The translations under genes and the position numbers were made by a program. Positions 4,357-60,708 of a stretch of 64,000 bases of DNA are shown here, one piece after another; position 1 is the first letter of the stretch; the number at the start of each line of letters is the position of its first letter. The DNA is taken from the NCBI RefSeq assembly GCF_019216885.1, contig NZ_JAAQRC020000001.1, positions 4,467,501-4,531,500 on the forward strand. The letters are read 5' to 3'. This stretch comes from Methylobacterium sp. SyP6R (GTDB taxonomy: Bacteria > Pseudomonadota > Alphaproteobacteria > Rhizobiales > Beijerinckiaceae). The notes beneath the pieces are model-generated. The model saw nothing but the letters and a program-made list of their open reading frames with translations. It ran no database searches and had not been told where the DNA came from.

Positions 4357-6192
4357 TCACGTCGGCGGCACGATCCAGGGCACCCGGCGCCAGCGCGTCT
4401 CGCGCAAGGTGCGCTCGGCATAGGTGCCGGCCACCGCCTCCCGCCCGCCCTGGGCCGCGAGGTCGAGGACGAGGGCGCTGTGGATGAAGGCGAGGTGGCT
4501 GAAGGCCTGCGGGAAGTTGCCCAGGAAGGTGCGGTCCTCCGCCACCTCCTCGGCGTAGAGCCCCAGATCGTTCTGGAGCGCCCGCAGGGCGTCGAACCGG
4601 GTCCGGGCCTCCTCGGTCCGGCCGAGCCAGGCCAGCGCGTCGACGAGCCAGAAGGCGCAGATCAGGAAGGTGCCCTCGTGGCCGGGCAGCCCGTCGTCGT
4701 TGCGGTAGCGGTAGACGAGCGGGCCGTGGCCGAGGCGCTCGATCACCACCTCGACCGTGCGGGCGAAGACCGCCTCGTCGACCGGAAAGCCCACCATCGG
4801 GGCGATCAGCAACGCCGCATCGGGATCGTCGCCGCCGACATATTGCGGGTAGTAGCCGTCCCGCGAGTGAACCGCCTCGCCGTTGACCCGGGCCACGATG
4901 GCGTCGCGGGCCGCGCACCAATGCGGCCGCTCGCCGAACAGCCGGATCGCCCGGTCGACCGCGACCCAGTTCATGATCGCGGCGTGCAGGTAATGCTCCT
5001 CGGGCTTGCGCGGCTCCCACAGGCCGGCATCCGTCTCGTGCCAGTGGGCGGCGGCGAAATCGGCCAGCCGGATCGCCTGGCGCTCCATCGCCTCGGGGAT
5101 GGTGCCGCCGAGGGTGCGGTACAGGTGGATGAGGTCGAGCACCTGACCGTAGGCGTCGCTCTGGTGCTGCTCGGCCGCCTCGTTGCCGTAGCGGACCGGG
5201 GCGCTGCCGCGCCAGCCCTCGAAATGCGCCGCCTCGTGTTCTGTCAGGTCGGTCTCGCCGGCGATGGCGTAGAGGGGGCGCAGGCCCCCCTCGTCGCGCT
5301 CGGCCAGGGTGCCGACGAAGCGGAAGAAGGCTTCCGCCTCCGCCACCATGCCGAACTTCTTCAGCACGTAGAAGGACAGGCAGGCGTCGCGGATCCAGCA
5401 GAACCGGTAATCCCAGTTGCGGATGCCGCCGATCTCCTCCGGCAGCGAGGTGGTGGCCGCCGCCACGATGGCACCGGAGGGTGCGTAGGTCAGGGCCTTG
5501 AGGGTGAGCGCGCTGCGCAGGAGCTGGTCGCGGAGCGGCCCGTCATAGGCGGCGCCGGCCGACCAGCCGGTCCAGGCCCGGCGCGCCGTCTCCATCAGCT
5601 CGCGCGGGCGCAACGCCGTGCGGGCCGCTGCGCCGCCGGGATAGAGCGCGAAGGCCTGCTCGCCGCCATGCTCGATCGTGAACCGGGCCACCGCCGCGCC
5701 GCCCTCGATCGCGAGAGGCAGATCGGTAATCACGTCCGGCAGCCCCTCGGCGCCGGCGCCGCCCGACACCGGCCTGAGCGTGGGGAAGGATTCCGAAAAA
5801 CCCGCCAGCGGCCGGTAGACCGCCCGCATCGGCACCGCGCCGGACACGCCGGAGACGAGGCGCACCAGGCAGGGCAGCGTCCGTCCCGATTCTCGAGCGA
5901 GCATGAAGTCGTGCACCGTCGCCGCCCCGGTGGCGCAGGTGAAGGTGGTCTCGAGGATGTTGGTGCCCGGCAGATAGAGCCGTGCACTCTCGAACGGCCC
6001 TTCCGGCGCGAGGGCGAAGAAGCCGCCGCGCCGGCGGTCGAGCAGGCGGGAGAAGACCGGGGGCGCATCGAATCGCTCGAGGCAGGCCCAGTCGATCGAG
6101 CCGTCGCGGGCGACGAGGGCGCAGCCGTGGCAGTTGCCGATCAGGCCGTAGGCCTCGATGGGCTGGTAGGGCCGGGCGTCCGGATCGTGCAT
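4357..6192 (-). CDS. Glycoside hydrolase family 15 protein (glucoamylase/trehalase-like)
   Basis: 611 residues, normal for bacterial GH15 enzymes. The N-terminal beta-sandwich opens with the family signature PIEAYGLIGNCHGCALVARD and GSIDWACLERFDAPPVFSRL. The (alpha/alpha)6 catalytic barrel follows with IRNWDYRFCWIRDACL, the likely general-acid region GLWEPRKPEEHYLHAAIMNW, and the likely base region GHEGTFLICAFWLVDAL. There is no signal peptide, so it probably acts in the cytoplasm on alpha-glucans or trehalose. The ATG at 6192 is used; a TTG two codons earlier is possible. It is divergent from the ribokinase-like gene across a 344-bp gap. Family is firm; substrate is open. Confidence 0.85.
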   Translation of the reverse strand: MHDPDARPYQPIEAYGLIGNCHGCALVARDGSIDWACLERFDAPPVFSRLLDRRRGGFFALAPEGPFESARLYLPGTNILETTFTCATGAATVHDFMLARESGRTLPCLVRLVSGVSGAVPMRAVYRPLAGFSESFPTLRPVSGGAGAEGLPDVITDLPLAIEGGAAVARFTIEHGGEQAFALYPGGAAARTALRPRELMETARRAWTGWSAGAAYDGPLRDQLLRSALTLKALTYAPSGAIVAAATTSLPEEIGGIRNWDYRFCWIRDACLSFYVLKKFGMVAEAEAFFRFVGTLAERDEGGLRPLYAIAGETDLTEHEAAHFEGWRGSAPVRYGNEAAEQHQSDAYGQVLDLIHLYRTLGGTIPEAMERQAIRLADFAAAHWHETDAGLWEPRKPEEHYLHAAIMNWVAVDRAIRLFGERPHWCAARDAIVARVNGEAVHSRDGYYPQYVGGDDPDAALLIAPMVGFPVDEAVFARTVEVVIERLGHGPLVYRYRNDDGLPGHEGTFLICAFWLVDALAWLGRTEEARTRFDALRALQNDLGLYAEEVAEDRTFLGNFPQAFSHLAFIHSALVLDLAAQGGREAVAGTYAERTLRETRWRRVPWIVPPT

Positions 6193-6536
6193 CGGCAAAG
6201 GCTCGGGCGAGAGGAGGCGGAATTGCGGGGATGGGTGCCCCGGGAACCGGCGTCGCCGCCGCCTCCCCCTGACGCCCTTGCCCCAGCGGCATTGCGGACG
6301 AATCGCGCGGTTTCGCCGGGTGTTCCTGCAGGCGAGCGGAAATTTTTCCGCGGATGAAGGCCAGGGTGAAAACGTGGCCTTCGTTTCGGCACCGCCGGTC
6401 GTTCGATGGCGTCGATGGTGCGGCTCCCGTAAAAGTTCCCGATCGCCCCGCCCGCCCCCTTCCCGTTCCTGCGCATCGGTGACATCGACCGACGTCGCGC
6501 CCGGCGCCTGCCCGAAGCCGCCCCAGGAGAAACCCC
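6193..6536. other. Divergent intergenic region, 344 bp
   Basis: Lies between the divergently transcribed GH15 gene and the ribokinase-like gene, so it should hold promoters for both. I see no clear operator, repeat or RNA structure in it. Confidence 0.5.
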
Positions 6537-56719: not shown

Positions 56720-56820
56720 CGCGATCTCCGCTCCAGGTTTTCCGCCCCTGACCTCAGCCCGGGAACCTATTCGACCTGCGACACCACGATCGCAACGGGC
56801 TTTCCTATCCTACCCTCCCA

Positions 56821-56930
56821 CCTCATCCTGAGGTGCGAACGCAGCGAGCCTCGAAGGAGGGCTTCAGGGAGCTCGGAGACTTCCGGATCTCGCCTTCGAG
56901 GCTCGCTTCGCTCACATCTCGGGATGAGGT
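56821..56930. repeat. Intergenic inverted repeat, family B, copy 3
   Basis: The best preserved of the three copies: left arm CCTCATCCTGAGGTGCGAAC with GAGCCTCGAAGGAGGGC, right arm GCCTTCGAGGCTCG and ATCTCGGGATGAGG in inverted order. About 110 bp, able to fold into one long hairpin. It lies between panB and the next secreted protein and could end transcription from both sides. Confidence 0.8.
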
Positions 56931-57437: not shown

Positions 57438-58868
57438 TCACGCGGCCCTCGCTTCCGCCGCCAGGGTCGCCGCCCGCCGCAGGTCGTCGACGAAGCCCAC
57501 ATACGCGTCCTCCCGCGCCCCGTCGGGCAGTCGCAGCAGGTAGGAGGGATGGACCGTGACGAAGCCCCGATACGGCTTGTCGCCGAAACTCGCCGGTCCG
57601 CGGGCGCGGGTGATCGGCACCTGCCGGCCCGACAGCGCCAGCATCGCGGTGGCGCCGAGCGCCACGACGACGCGTGGCGCCACGAAGGCGAGCTCGCGTT
57701 CGAGCCACCAGCGGTAATGCGCCACCTCGCCGGCGCCGGGCTTCTGGTGGATGCGCCGCTTGCCCCGAACCTCGAACTTGAAGTGCTTGACCGCATTGGT
57801 GAGATAGGTCCGCTCGCGGTCGATCCCGGCCTCGCGCAACGCCCGCGACAGGAGCTGGCCCGCCGGACCGACGAAGGGCCGCCCGTGCACATCCTCCTGA
57901 TCGCCCGGTTGCTCGCCGACGAAAGCGATGTCCGCGCCGAGCGGACCTTCGCCGAGGACGGCCTGCGTCGCGCCCGGCACCAGCGGCTCGGAGGCGCGGA
58001 TGATTGCGTTCAGCGCTTCCAACGAGTCGGGCTCCTGCGCCGCCATCGCGGCGAGCGCCCGCGCCGGCACGCGCTTCATCGGCGCCTCGGGGGCGCGGGC
58101 GATCATCTCGCCCACGCGCCGGCCGGCCTCGCGGACCAAGCCGGGGATCGCCGCGGCCTCGGGCAGGTTGTGCCAGTATTTCTTCGGCATCTCGGCCCGC
58201 ATCGCCGCCAGGTTGGTGCGGGCAGGATTGAAGGTGCTGGAATAGTAGTCGGTCCAGCCGGCCTCGAAGGCGTCCGCATCCGGCACGTCCTCGCGCCGGC
58301 CCGGCGGCCCGAAGGTCAGGGCCCGTCCGTCCCAATGGGCCGAACCGTCCGGCGTCAGGATCGACCAGTCGAAGGAGGGGAAGCGCGCGGAGAAGAACGG
58401 CGCCGCCTCGGCCAGGATGTGATGCTCGGGCTCGAACCAGGCGGCGAATCGCTCACGCCCTCCCGCCCCCGCCCCGGCGCGGCGGAAGCGCAGGAAGGCG
58501 TGCATCTTGTGCAGGTCGCGCGCCACGCTTTTCCGCATCAGGTACAGGCGATGGACCAGCGGGTCGCTCGCCACCTCGGCAAGATGCCGCTCTCCCCCCG
58601 CCACCCGCCAGACCAGCCGGTGCAGAAGCGCATAGCGCTCGGGATCGCGGTGCATGACGACAGATGGGATCAGGGCCGCCACCGCCCGCGGCAGTGCGAG
58701 GGCCGGGCCGGGCTCCGTCAGTTCCGCCTCGGCAAACAGCGAGGCAGCCTCACCGTCGATCCAGGTCACCGCCTCCGGTGGGATGCCTGCCGGGACGAGG
58801 CGCCGGATCGCCACGCGGAACCCCGCGAGGTCGGCGCCGGCCTGGAGCCGGATGGTGTGGGCGCGCAT
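57438..58868 (-). CDS. udgX: DUF4130-UdgX fusion: uracil-DNA cross-linking glycosylase family protein
   Basis: 476 residues. Residues 1-260 are the DUF4130/TIGR03915-type domain (LLHRLVWRVAGGERHLAEVA, DLHKMHAFLRFRR, YYSSTFNPARTNLAAMRAEM, MPKKYWHNLPEA). Residues 275-476 are a family-4-like uracil-DNA glycosylase: GEQPGDQED (318-326), GRPFVGPAGQLLSRALREAG and HPSYLLR. KRRIH (370-374) is the extra loop that defines UdgX, whose His bonds covalently to the abasic site after uracil removal; no Fe-S ligands can be judged beyond that. The ATG at 58868 is used. Upstream, within 266 bp of repeats, is the radical SAM gene of the same strand. A DNA-damage role is expected. Confidence 0.88.
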   Translation of the reverse strand: MRAHTIRLQAGADLAGFRVAIRRLVPAGIPPEAVTWIDGEAASLFAEAELTEPGPALALPRAVAALIPSVVMHRDPERYALLHRLVWRVAGGERHLAEVASDPLVHRLYLMRKSVARDLHKMHAFLRFRRAGAGAGGRERFAAWFEPEHHILAEAAPFFSARFPSFDWSILTPDGSAHWDGRALTFGPPGRREDVPDADAFEAGWTDYYSSTFNPARTNLAAMRAEMPKKYWHNLPEAAAIPGLVREAGRRVGEMIARAPEAPMKRVPARALAAMAAQEPDSLEALNAIIRASEPLVPGATQAVLGEGPLGADIAFVGEQPGDQEDVHGRPFVGPAGQLLSRALREAGIDRERTYLTNAVKHFKFEVRGKRRIHQKPGAGEVAHYRWWLERELAFVAPRVVVALGATAMLALSGRQVPITRARGPASFGDKPYRGFVTVHPSYLLRLPDGAREDAYVGFVDDLRRAATLAAEARAA

Positions 58869-58870
58869 CC

Positions 58871-58990
58871 AGAGCATTTTCCGATGAAGTGGAGACCGGT
58901 TCGTCGCAGGCAATGCGGCAAACCAAAGACCTAAGCAGATTTCGCAAACGTGGACGCCGGTTTTGCGGAAAAAATCTGCGACAAACAAGG
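58871..58990 (-). repeat. Degenerate intergenic repeat, family C, copy 1
   Basis: AGAGCATTTTCCGATGAAGT and CCGGTTCGTCGCAG match, in inverted orientation, the copy at 59031-59139. A second small inverted repeat (GCAGATTT...AAATCTGC, 58936-58980) is nested in it. It directly abuts the UdgX start codon, so it forms the leader of that gene. Confidence 0.75.
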
Positions 58991-59030
58991 ATCTAAGCTG
59001 ACGAAGCGTCGGCCTGCCAACGCAAGTCTG

Positions 59031-59139
59031 CTCTAGAGCACTTCACGATCGCGTTGCCATCGCGAAGCTCTCTAGGACTTTGATTTTGCCGCATTTTCTG
59101 CGACGAACCGGCATCCACTTCGTCGGAAAATGCTCTAGA
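59031..59139 (+). repeat. Intergenic miniature repeat, family C, copy 2 (109 bp)
   Basis: Ends are short inverted repeats TCTAGAGCA and TGCTCTAGA; inside are CACGATCGCGTTGCCATCGC and TTGCCGCATTTTCTGCGACG. Such boxed elements are frequent between genes in Methylobacterium and rhizobia. Its right end supplies the TAG stop codon (59135-59137, minus strand) of the radical SAM gene. Confidence 0.8.
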
Positions 59140-60346
59140 ACAGGCTCAGCTGGCGCGGCGGCTCGGCGAGACGCGCGCGCAGGTCGAGCCGATCGGTGAG
59201 CCGCGTCGGCGCATAATCGGCCGCGATCAGGAACGGCCGGGCCCGCTTGAGACCCGATGTCAGGCGGGCGACATCGTCGAGGCGCAGCGTCGCATGGCGG
59301 CGCGCCGCCACGATCTTGTCCACCGCCCGCACGCCGAGGCCCGGCACCCGTAGCAGCATCTCCCGGTCGGCCCGGTTGACGTCGACGGGGAAGCGGTCGC
59401 GGTTGCGCAGGGCCCAGGCGAGCTTCGGGTCGACGTCGAGGGCGAGCATGCCGGATTCGGTCGCCCCGGCCACGTCGTCGGGCGAGAATTCGTAGTACCG
59501 CATCAGCCAGTCGGCCTGGTACAGCCGGTGCTCGCGCTGGAGCGGCGGCGATTGGCTCGGCAGGATCGAGGCCGCGTCGGGAATCGGGCTGAAGGCCGAG
59601 TAGTAGATCCGCTTCAGGCCGTAATGGTCGTAGAGGCGGGCGCTGGTGCGGATCAGCGATTCGTCGGTGCTGGCATCCGCCCCGACGATGACCTGCGTCG
59701 ATTGCCCGGCGGGGGCGAAGCGGCGCTTCTCCTCTTTGGCCTGCAGGATGCGCTCGCCCATCTGCCCCATCGCGGTCTGGATCGCGGCGCCGTCCTTCTC
59801 CGGCGCCAGCCGTTCCAGGCTCGCCTCGGTCGGAAGTTCGAGGTTGATCGAGAGCCGGTCGGCGTAGAGCCCGGCCTGCTCGATCAGCCACGGGCTCGCC
59901 TCGGGGATGGTCTTGAGGTGGATGTAGCCGCGAAAGCCGTGCCGCTGGCGCAAGGTCTTCGCCACCCGGATCAGCTGCTCCATCGTGTGGTCGGGCGAGC
60001 GGATGATGCCGGAGGACAGGAACAACCCCTCGATGTAGTTGCGCTTGTAGAACTCGACCGTCAGCGTCACCACCTCGTCGACCGAGAACTTCGCTCGTCG
60101 CACATTCGAGGAACGCCGGTTGACGCAATAGGCGCAGTCGAACAGGCAATAATTGGTGAGCAGGATCTTGAGCAGCGAGACGCAGCGCCCGTCCGGCGTG
60201 TAGGCGTGGCAGATTCCCGCCCCCGTCGTCGAGCCGAGCCCGCCGGCCTCGGCCTTGCGCTTCGGCGCCCCCGACGAGGCGCAGGAGGCATCGTATTTCG
60301 CCGCGTCGGCGAGAACCGTCAGCTTCTTCTTGAGGGCGTCATCCAT
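59135..60346 (-). CDS. Putative DNA modification/repair radical SAM protein (TIGR03916-like)
   Basis: 403 residues. The radical SAM cluster is C67-x3-C71-x2-C74 (CLFDCAYC), preceded by KILLTNY; an N-terminal conserved part reads KLTVLADAAKYDASCASSGA and GICHAYTPDGRCVSLLKI. The barrel includes GLFLSSGIIRSPDHTMEQLI, RLSINLELPTEASLERLAPE and RIYYSAFSPIPD. A C-terminal helix-hairpin-helix (DREMLLRVPGLGVRAVDKIV) should bind DNA. The family is paired with DUF4130/UdgX genes in many bacteria, as here. A LexA box lies 18 bases upstream of the ATG. The reaction is unknown. Confidence 0.9.
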   Translation of the reverse strand: MDDALKKKLTVLADAAKYDASCASSGAPKRKAEAGGLGSTTGAGICHAYTPDGRCVSLLKILLTNYCLFDCAYCVNRRSSNVRRAKFSVDEVVTLTVEFYKRNYIEGLFLSSGIIRSPDHTMEQLIRVAKTLRQRHGFRGYIHLKTIPEASPWLIEQAGLYADRLSINLELPTEASLERLAPEKDGAAIQTAMGQMGERILQAKEEKRRFAPAGQSTQVIVGADASTDESLIRTSARLYDHYGLKRIYYSAFSPIPDAASILPSQSPPLQREHRLYQADWLMRYYEFSPDDVAGATESGMLALDVDPKLAWALRNRDRFPVDVNRADREMLLRVPGLGVRAVDKIVAARRHATLRLDDVARLTSGLKRARPFLIAADYAPTRLTDRLDLRARLAEPPRQLSLF

Positions 60347-60364
60347 TCCTGCAAACTGGCTTTC

Positions 60365-60379
60365 GTTCGTGATTTGTTC
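60365..60379 (-). promoter_or_regulatory. Candidate LexA (SOS) box, GTTC-N7-GTTC
   Basis: GTTCGTGATTTGTTC is an exact match to the alphaproteobacterial LexA consensus GTTC-N7-GTTC. It is 18 bases before the radical SAM start codon, a position where LexA would cover the promoter. The divergent 69-residue gene starts 119 bases away on the other side. Confidence 0.65.
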
Positions 60380-60498: not shown

Positions 60499-60708
60499 AT
60501 GGCGACGAACCCGTCCGCGAACTGCCGCAGCTGCCGCTACTTCGACGACCACAAGCTGAACGGCGCCGCCGCGCAGGGTGAGGAGGGCCTGTGCCGCTTC
60601 AACCCTCCCGTGAGCCAGCCCGAGCCGCAGGGACACGGCCTGTGGCCGGTGGTCTCGGCGCAGGATTGGTGCGGGCATTTCTCGCCGGAGATGATGGCGG
60701 GCGAGTAA
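60499..60708 (+). CDS. Small four-cysteine protein, 69 aa
   Basis: MATNPSANCRSCRYFDDHKL, then EGLCRFNPPVSQPE, GLWPVVSAQDWCGHFSPEM. Cys9, Cys12, Cys32 and Cys58 are spaced C-x2-C...C...C, suited to one zinc or Fe-S site. GGAGG sits seven bases before the ATG. Conserved-looking small protein with no known function. It is divergent from the SOS-linked radical SAM gene and has its own terminator. Confidence 0.75.
   Translation: MATNPSANCRSCRYFDDHKLNGAAAQGEEGLCRFNPPVSQPEPQGHGLWPVVSAQDWCGHFSPEMMAGE

Follow-up and report, generated by a model that had tools for sequence, protein, structure and literature searches.

A putative LexA-controlled radical SAM-DUF4130 operon of Pseudomonadota in which UdgX appears to be accessory

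A 64,000-nucleotide stretch of the Methylobacterium sp. SyP6R genome (contig NZ_JAAQRC020000001.1, forward-strand positions 4,467,501 to 4,531,500; hereafter the window) carries on its minus strand a gene for a radical S-adenosylmethionine (SAM) protein, followed by a gene in which DUF4130 is fused to UdgX. We found that an exact LexA-type box precedes the radical SAM gene, that a LexA-type site holds this place before most orthologues inspected in Pseudomonadota, to which the whole survey was confined, and that DUF4130, not UdgX, is the constant companion of the radical SAM gene. The explanation that we prefer, at a probability of about 0.5, is a LexA-repressed radical SAM-DUF4130 repair operon with UdgX as an accessory. 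The features concerned are listed below in window coordinates, with the basis of each in parentheses.

57438..58868, minus strand: DUF4130-UdgX fusion gene, 476 amino acids (open reading frame, profiles, alignment)
57441..58148, minus strand: UdgX part, residues 241-476 (profile and motifs)
57747..57761, minus strand: R-loop KRRIH with H374 (alignment to M. smegmatis UdgX)
58149..58868, minus strand: DUF4130/TIGR03915 part, residues 1-240 (profile match)
58870..59137, no strand: dispersed inverted repeat between the two genes, arms 58870-58893 and 59114-59137, TAGAGCATTTTCCGACGAAGTGGA (genome copy count)
59135..60346, minus strand: radical SAM protein, TIGR03916 rSAM_link_UDG, 403 amino acids (open reading frame and profile match)
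59297..59386, minus strand: C-terminal helix-hairpin-helix-like stretch, presumed DNA contact (sub-cut-off HHH_3 match)
60125..60148, minus strand: CX3CX2C radical SAM cluster motif, C67/C71/C74 (translation, alignments)
60182..60283, minus strand: N-terminal stretch with invariant C22, C46, H47 and C55, candidate second metal (auxiliary Fe-S) site (alignments)
60365..60379, no strand: LexA-type direct repeat GTTC-N7-GTTC, GTTCGTGATTTGTTC on the plus strand (exact match, conserved before orthologues)

A putative LexA operator is conserved ahead of the radical SAM gene

The initial annotation of this DNA had proposed SOS control of the two genes on the strength of an exact GTTC-N7-GTTC box. Open reading frames (ORFs), profile searches and a motif scan confirmed its coordinates, families and box, which lies upstream of the radical SAM ATG and is separated from it by 18 bases. 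Within the window the pattern means little by itself (2 matches against 1.19 expected, with 35 of 100 shuffles reaching 2); the box rises above chance because of its position and its conservation before orthologues. The genome encodes one LexA over the cut-off, and the exact box in the promoter of that lexA gene served as a positive control; recA of the same genome has a one-mismatch box only. The sequence marks by which membership in the LexA (SOS) regulon of Alphaproteobacteria is judged, namely a box in the promoter, its retention in orthologues and an encoded LexA, were all found.

A TIGR03916 match was present in 109 of 111 genomes of the genus, 108 of them over the cut-off. The box was sought ahead of the radical SAM gene in four sets of loci, which may overlap in species, and was found at 30/30 genus loci (30 inspected out of the 108 Methylobacterium genomes over the cut-off), 19/20 class loci, 77/80 named loci (the best 80 of 592 confirmed candidates) and 25/25 phylum-sample loci (the best-scoring new alphaproteobacterial ones), the sub-cut-off loci L051-L058 being excluded from the counts. 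Its distance to the nearest start codon is mostly 0-30 bases, and 81-88 bases in six of the 25 phylum-sample loci. Elsewhere in the same sequences, with the promoter windows removed, the pattern occurs 31 times in 971,405 bases, or 0.005 times per 150 bases. Absence of the box before orthologues had been named at the outset as grounds for giving up SOS control; the box recurs instead.

Among 29 Pseudomonadota genomes outside Alphaproteobacteria, the alphaproteobacterial box was found in none of the promoters (0/29). The same promoter place holds CTGT-N8-ACAG, which we take to be the E. coli-type LexA site, in exact form at 19/29 loci and with at most one mismatch at 24/29; elsewhere in these sequences the exact form occurs 4 times in 134,533 bases. 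Since the promoter of this gene carries LexA-type sites of two different kinds at one position, depending on the class, selection appears to have kept SOS induction of the pair while LexA specificity shifted. The conservation of the two site types gives strong sequence support to the SOS control first proposed, and the radical SAM-DUF4130 operon is almost certainly under LexA control.

A match on a viral contig (L139) also has the GTTC-N7-GTTC box. Three loci of one family outside the class (L191, L203 and L214) have in common a near-palindromic CTCATCCAATGAGACC upstream of the radical SAM gene, which might act as a terminator or as an operator of another kind.

DUF4130, rather than UdgX, accompanies the radical SAM gene

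To see which parts belong together, co-occurrence was counted in 289 Alphaproteobacteria genomes taken in one even draw, with identical genomes used for the three profile searches. Over the cut-offs, the radical SAM protein was present in 22, UdgX in 30 and DUF4130 in 23; the radical SAM search had matched 34 genomes, of which the 12 under the curated cut-off were not counted. In all 22, DUF4130 is the next gene on the same strand, after about 640 bases in one of them (G120). UdgX lies at the locus in 15 of these genomes, elsewhere in two (G136 and G327), and is absent over the cut-off from five (G246, G256, G276, G322 and G337). The 23rd DUF4130 gene belongs to a genome (G262, locus L218), excluded from the 22, that keeps the LexA box next to a radical SAM gene with an internal deletion, the N-terminus running into about residue 275; we read this as decay of the pair.

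The same arrangement was seen outside the class. In the radical SAM search of the phylum sample, 12 of 97 matches fell under the curated cut-off and were left uncounted. DUF4130 over the cut-off adjoins the radical SAM gene in 29/29 genomes, and UdgX over the cut-off occurs in 10/29, every one at the locus. G691 has a weak eleventh match there; the G653 contig stops shortly beyond DUF4130, and no UdgX was found elsewhere in that genome. When both samples are pooled, DUF4130 adjoins the radical SAM gene at 51/51 loci, whereas UdgX over the cut-off is at the locus in 25/51 and nowhere in the genome in 24/51. Conversely, in 13 of the 289 class genomes UdgX occurs unaccompanied by the radical SAM gene. 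An obligate adduct-repair pair, with UdgX and the radical SAM protein always together, is contradicted by these 24/51 and 13/289 exceptions. At the named loci that show DUF4130, UdgX is fused to it in 71 of 78; of the other seven, L072 and L129 end with the contig.

We also inspected 16 UdgX regions away from the pair, comprising those of 12 genomes that lack the radical SAM gene, the second UdgX copies of G190 and G283, and the genes of G136 and G327 that are not linked to the pair (L141 was too short and was omitted). A LexA box was upstream in 1/16, the one match (L152) lying 80 bases before the profile match, and UdgX was rejected as the reason for SOS control. Because of the co-occurrence counts and the near absence of the box at unlinked UdgX genes, the constant SOS-controlled unit is very probably radical SAM plus DUF4130, as far as gene content and promoters tell, with UdgX an add-on.

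A constant downstream operon partner was likewise rejected, since a close co-directed ORF follows at 29 of 78 loci and varies; seven of the 29 were scanned and gave one cupin, one LysE, one MlaE and four without a family. At four loci a hemerythrin-domain gene lies between radical SAM and DUF4130 (L088:4153-4635, L106:5485-5958, L128:5259-5747 and L135 about 5727-6197), with a Pfam match in the three scanned and by likeness in L135. Three of these come from Sphingomonas/Sphingobium and one from a Pseudomonadota metagenome-assembled genome; its presence inside the sphingomonad operon is a hint that shielding the Fe-S enzyme from oxygen may be important in aerobes. Relatives of the radical SAM protein are also found on 158 plasmid records, 142 of them predicted non-mobilizable and 58 from Phaeobacter, and on 10 phage records, two of which are 240-kb records of Acinetobacter phages. 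An anti-phage defence system was considered and rejected, both proteins matching 0 PADLOC families at E 0.01.

Sequence features of the two proteins

The radical SAM protein scores 558.7 bits against TIGR03916 in the NCBIfam profile search, over the curated cut-off of 343.5, and is presumed to be the protein that the literature calls COG4277. Its CX3CX2C motif, noted in the initial annotation, is present at C67/C71/C74, and together with a barrel fold, like that of lipoyl synthase, HydE and biotin synthase in a fold search, it agrees with the radical SAM superfamily. Besides the motif cysteines, C22, C46, H47 and C55 are unchanged in 82/82 radical SAM sequences (53/53 and 29/29 in the two sets), suggesting a second metal centre. 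The C-terminal helix-hairpin-helix-like stretch also gives a weak ComEA-related match (E 0.013).

The most likely start codon of the fusion gene is ATG 58868, in preference to TTG 58988. Its DUF4130 part exceeds both cut-offs (119.3 against 27 bits for Pfam, 186.8 against 112.25 for TIGR03915). Residues H120, R127, R162, W168, W205, Y208, R217, W232 and E237 of this part are invariant in 47/47 and 29/29 sequences. A fold search with the model of the whole fusion returned matches that, among those listed, are taken up by the uracil-DNA glycosylase (UDG) domain. The UdgX part scores 292.9 bits against TIGR03914 (UDG_fam_dom; cut-off 189.95), and the UdgX motifs GEQPG, KRRIH and HPSYLLR are all in the translation; against the family 4 UDG model TIGR00758 it reaches 99.2 bits, under the cut-off of 125.3. 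H374 in the R-loop aligns with H109 of M. smegmatis UdgX, the histidine to which a cross-linking role is assigned in the available text of PMC10359453, and with E319 and Q320 it is invariant in 47/47 aligned fused UdgX sequences.

Gene spacing and other observations in the window

The two genes are 266 bases apart here, and this gap goes with the dispersed repeat, which overlaps the radical SAM stop codon. Its 24-base arm has 77 copies in the genome at up to 2 mismatches, against 0 for the reversed control. Within the genus the gap is 50-267 bases at 14/28 loci and at most 14 at the other 14/28; at 67 of 78 named loci it is at most 38 bases or the genes overlap (for which DUF4130 starts were extrapolated by alignment). 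Co-transcription of the UdgX gene with the radical SAM gene is likely in this genome, though the repeat-associated gap makes it less sure than at loci with adjoining genes. Another intergenic inverted repeat, at 56820-56930 (CCTCATCCTGAGGTGCGA then CTTCGAGGCTCGC), resembles by eye a dispersed palindromic repeat.

The window holds one more exact LexA-type box, GAACATATAGTGAAC on the plus strand at 1843-1857, which is identical to the site before many orthologues and lies 59 bases ahead of a short ORF (1917-2168, 83 amino acids), possibly a further SOS gene. On the other side of the operator from the radical SAM gene is a divergent plus-strand ORF, 60499-60708, of 69 residues with four cysteines and AAGGAGG ahead of its start; the box between them could act on both.

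Discussion

The explanation that we prefer can be stated as a sequence of events. DNA damage would lead to cleavage of LexA, upon which the radical SAM enzyme and the DUF4130 protein would be made together. The former would bind DNA through its helix-hairpin-helix and generate a 5'-deoxyadenosyl radical at C67/C71/C74, and a second Fe-S or other metal centre at C22/C46/H47/C55 might help it act on the damaged nucleotide. DUF4130, as the obligate partner, would recognise, flip or finish the lesion, and UdgX, which roughly half of the genomes carry as a fusion to DUF4130, would have the accessory role of capturing uracil or abasic sites at the same lesions. That the radical chemistry acts directly on DNA we consider possible, at somewhat less than even odds. 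More tentative still is the broader proposal that the pair is a widespread SOS-induced two-protein enzyme for radical repair or rewriting of a DNA base, with a Cys3His-type second metal centre and with UdgX optional. To our knowledge, direct radical repair of DNA is nearly a one-enzyme field; if the proposal is true, the pair would add to spore photoproduct lyase a new class of enzyme that repairs DNA by radical chemistry. Tests should aim at DUF4130 as the partner and not at UdgX, and strains naturally without UdgX offer a clean genetic background.

Several observations weigh against the preferred explanation. The box was not found in the Alphaproteobacteria loci L034, L102 and L110 or in L104 (Xanthomonas dyei), and five of the 29 loci outside the class (L189, L191, L203, L210 and L214) have neither a CTGT site, even at one mismatch, nor the alphaproteobacterial box. 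The loci inspected for the operator were the better-scoring ones of each search and are non-random. The score of the radical SAM protein against Pfam Radical_SAM PF04055 (28.2 bits) is just under the gathering cut-off of 29.5, and the HHH_3 match at residues 321-350 (E 1.5e-4, 22.2 bits) is under that of 27 bits. In the predicted structure most of the N-terminal cysteine loops have a pLDDT (predicted local distance difference test) value below 50 (residues 22-27, 43-46, 48-54 and 56-58), and their meeting in one site is a candidate arrangement only. For DUF4130, a sequence search of solved structures gave no relative (best E 0.68).

The radical SAM protein might instead be a maturase that modifies DUF4130, the latter being the actual repair enzyme. 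The helix-hairpin-helix-like stretch favours DNA over a protein as the substrate, and neither glycine nor cysteine is among the DUF4130 columns conserved at 95% or more; we judge a maturase unlikely. A different course, suggested in print, is SOS-induced base excision, directed against uracil or wrongly incorporated nucleotides around error-prone polymerases, in which the radical SAM protein has an ancillary part. This leans on a UDG, yet none is over the cut-off at 26/51 loci (including the sub-cut-off match of G691 and G653, where the contig ends after DUF4130), and the operator, sought at all 26 of these, is missing in only a few. Base excision as the purpose of the operon is accordingly rated as improbable.

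The initial annotation had favoured a repair step in which UdgX forms a covalent DNA adduct and radical chemistry resolves or prepares it. The cross-linking histidine is indeed kept in all 47 aligned fused UdgX sequences, and the radical SAM and UdgX genes are adjacent with an operator in common. As a general function, however, this is not supported, with 24/51 pair genomes lacking UdgX over the cut-off and UdgX occurring without the pair in 13/289; moreover, the authors of PMC10359453, in its available text, propose that RecA-dependent pathways or proteases may resolve UdgX-DNA complexes. We regard the adduct step as very unlikely. Lastly, a chance match of the box in an operon outside SOS control is suggested by the commonness of the pattern (139 matches genome-wide against 95 for its reverse) but is most improbable given the conserved position of the box and the presence, at that position outside the class, of the other kind of site.

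Relation to known systems

The joint function of these families had been called undescribed at the outset. This fits the literature matches listed, among which a full-text search found no publication on UdgX with radical SAM, UdgX with LexA, or TIGR03916 and a single one on DUF4130, and the available parts of PMC1839093, PMC12700426 and PMC10776899 hold nothing on a radical SAM-DUF4130-UdgX operon. The SOS link of the operon and the association of the families are, however, in print. PMC8565304, in its available parts, infers SOS regulation of a COG1573-COG4277 operon in Bacteroidetes and cites an earlier SOS-regulated uracil-DNA-glycosylase-based system in Verrucomicrobia and Alphaproteobacteria (Caulobacter), and the accessible text of PMC3765255 describes DUF4130, which it associates with SplB-like radical SAM proteins and with uracil DNA glycosylases, as an enzyme with a predicted link to mutagenesis. 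Unspecified radical SAM proteins also appear in the LexA regulons of Streptomyces venezuelae (PMC9380542) and of Gram-positives and Balneolaeota (PMC7739468), as far as the portions seen of these papers go. LexA control of the operon is thus not new in kind. What is new here is that operators were surveyed in Pseudomonadota, that the site type was seen to change and that the unit can do without UdgX, some of which other papers may state.

TIGR03916, TIGR03915 (SAM_7_link_chp) and TIGR03914 all match over their cut-offs, and their names already state the linkage; they are silent on the operator and on which parts are obligate. M. smegmatis UdgX was crystallised as chains of about 210 residues with one domain, whereas here UdgX is fused behind DUF4130 and lies under a LexA site. 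Lipoyl synthase, HydE and biotin synthase have the barrel fold and CX3CX2C in common with the radical SAM protein, which differs in its C22-x23-C46-x8-C55 spacing, its added C-terminal helix-hairpin-helix-like stretch and its DNA-repair gene context. Lipoyl synthase carries an N-terminal three-cysteine auxiliary cluster with the motif CX4CX5C; identity with it is ruled out by the spacing and by the lack of such an NCBIfam match, leaving a likeness of fold only.

SplB, the spore photoproduct lyase, is a radical SAM enzyme that is SOS-regulated in several species according to the available text of PMC8565304. PMC3765255, as far as available, calls the DUF4130-associated proteins SplB-like, whereas NCBIfam gives TIGR03916 only for the protein here; no spore photoproduct lyase model is among its NCBIfam or Pfam matches, and the enzyme is also not among the fold matches listed, which carries no weight. 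There is also a close likeness to the Bacteroidetes operon, which has both families, two genes and an upstream LexA-type motif. Its operators are GGA-N5-TCC or CTAA-N5-TTAG, against GTTC-N7-GTTC here, and PMC8565304, in the parts available, treats it as UDG-based excision, whereas in Pseudomonadota the UDG part is optional.

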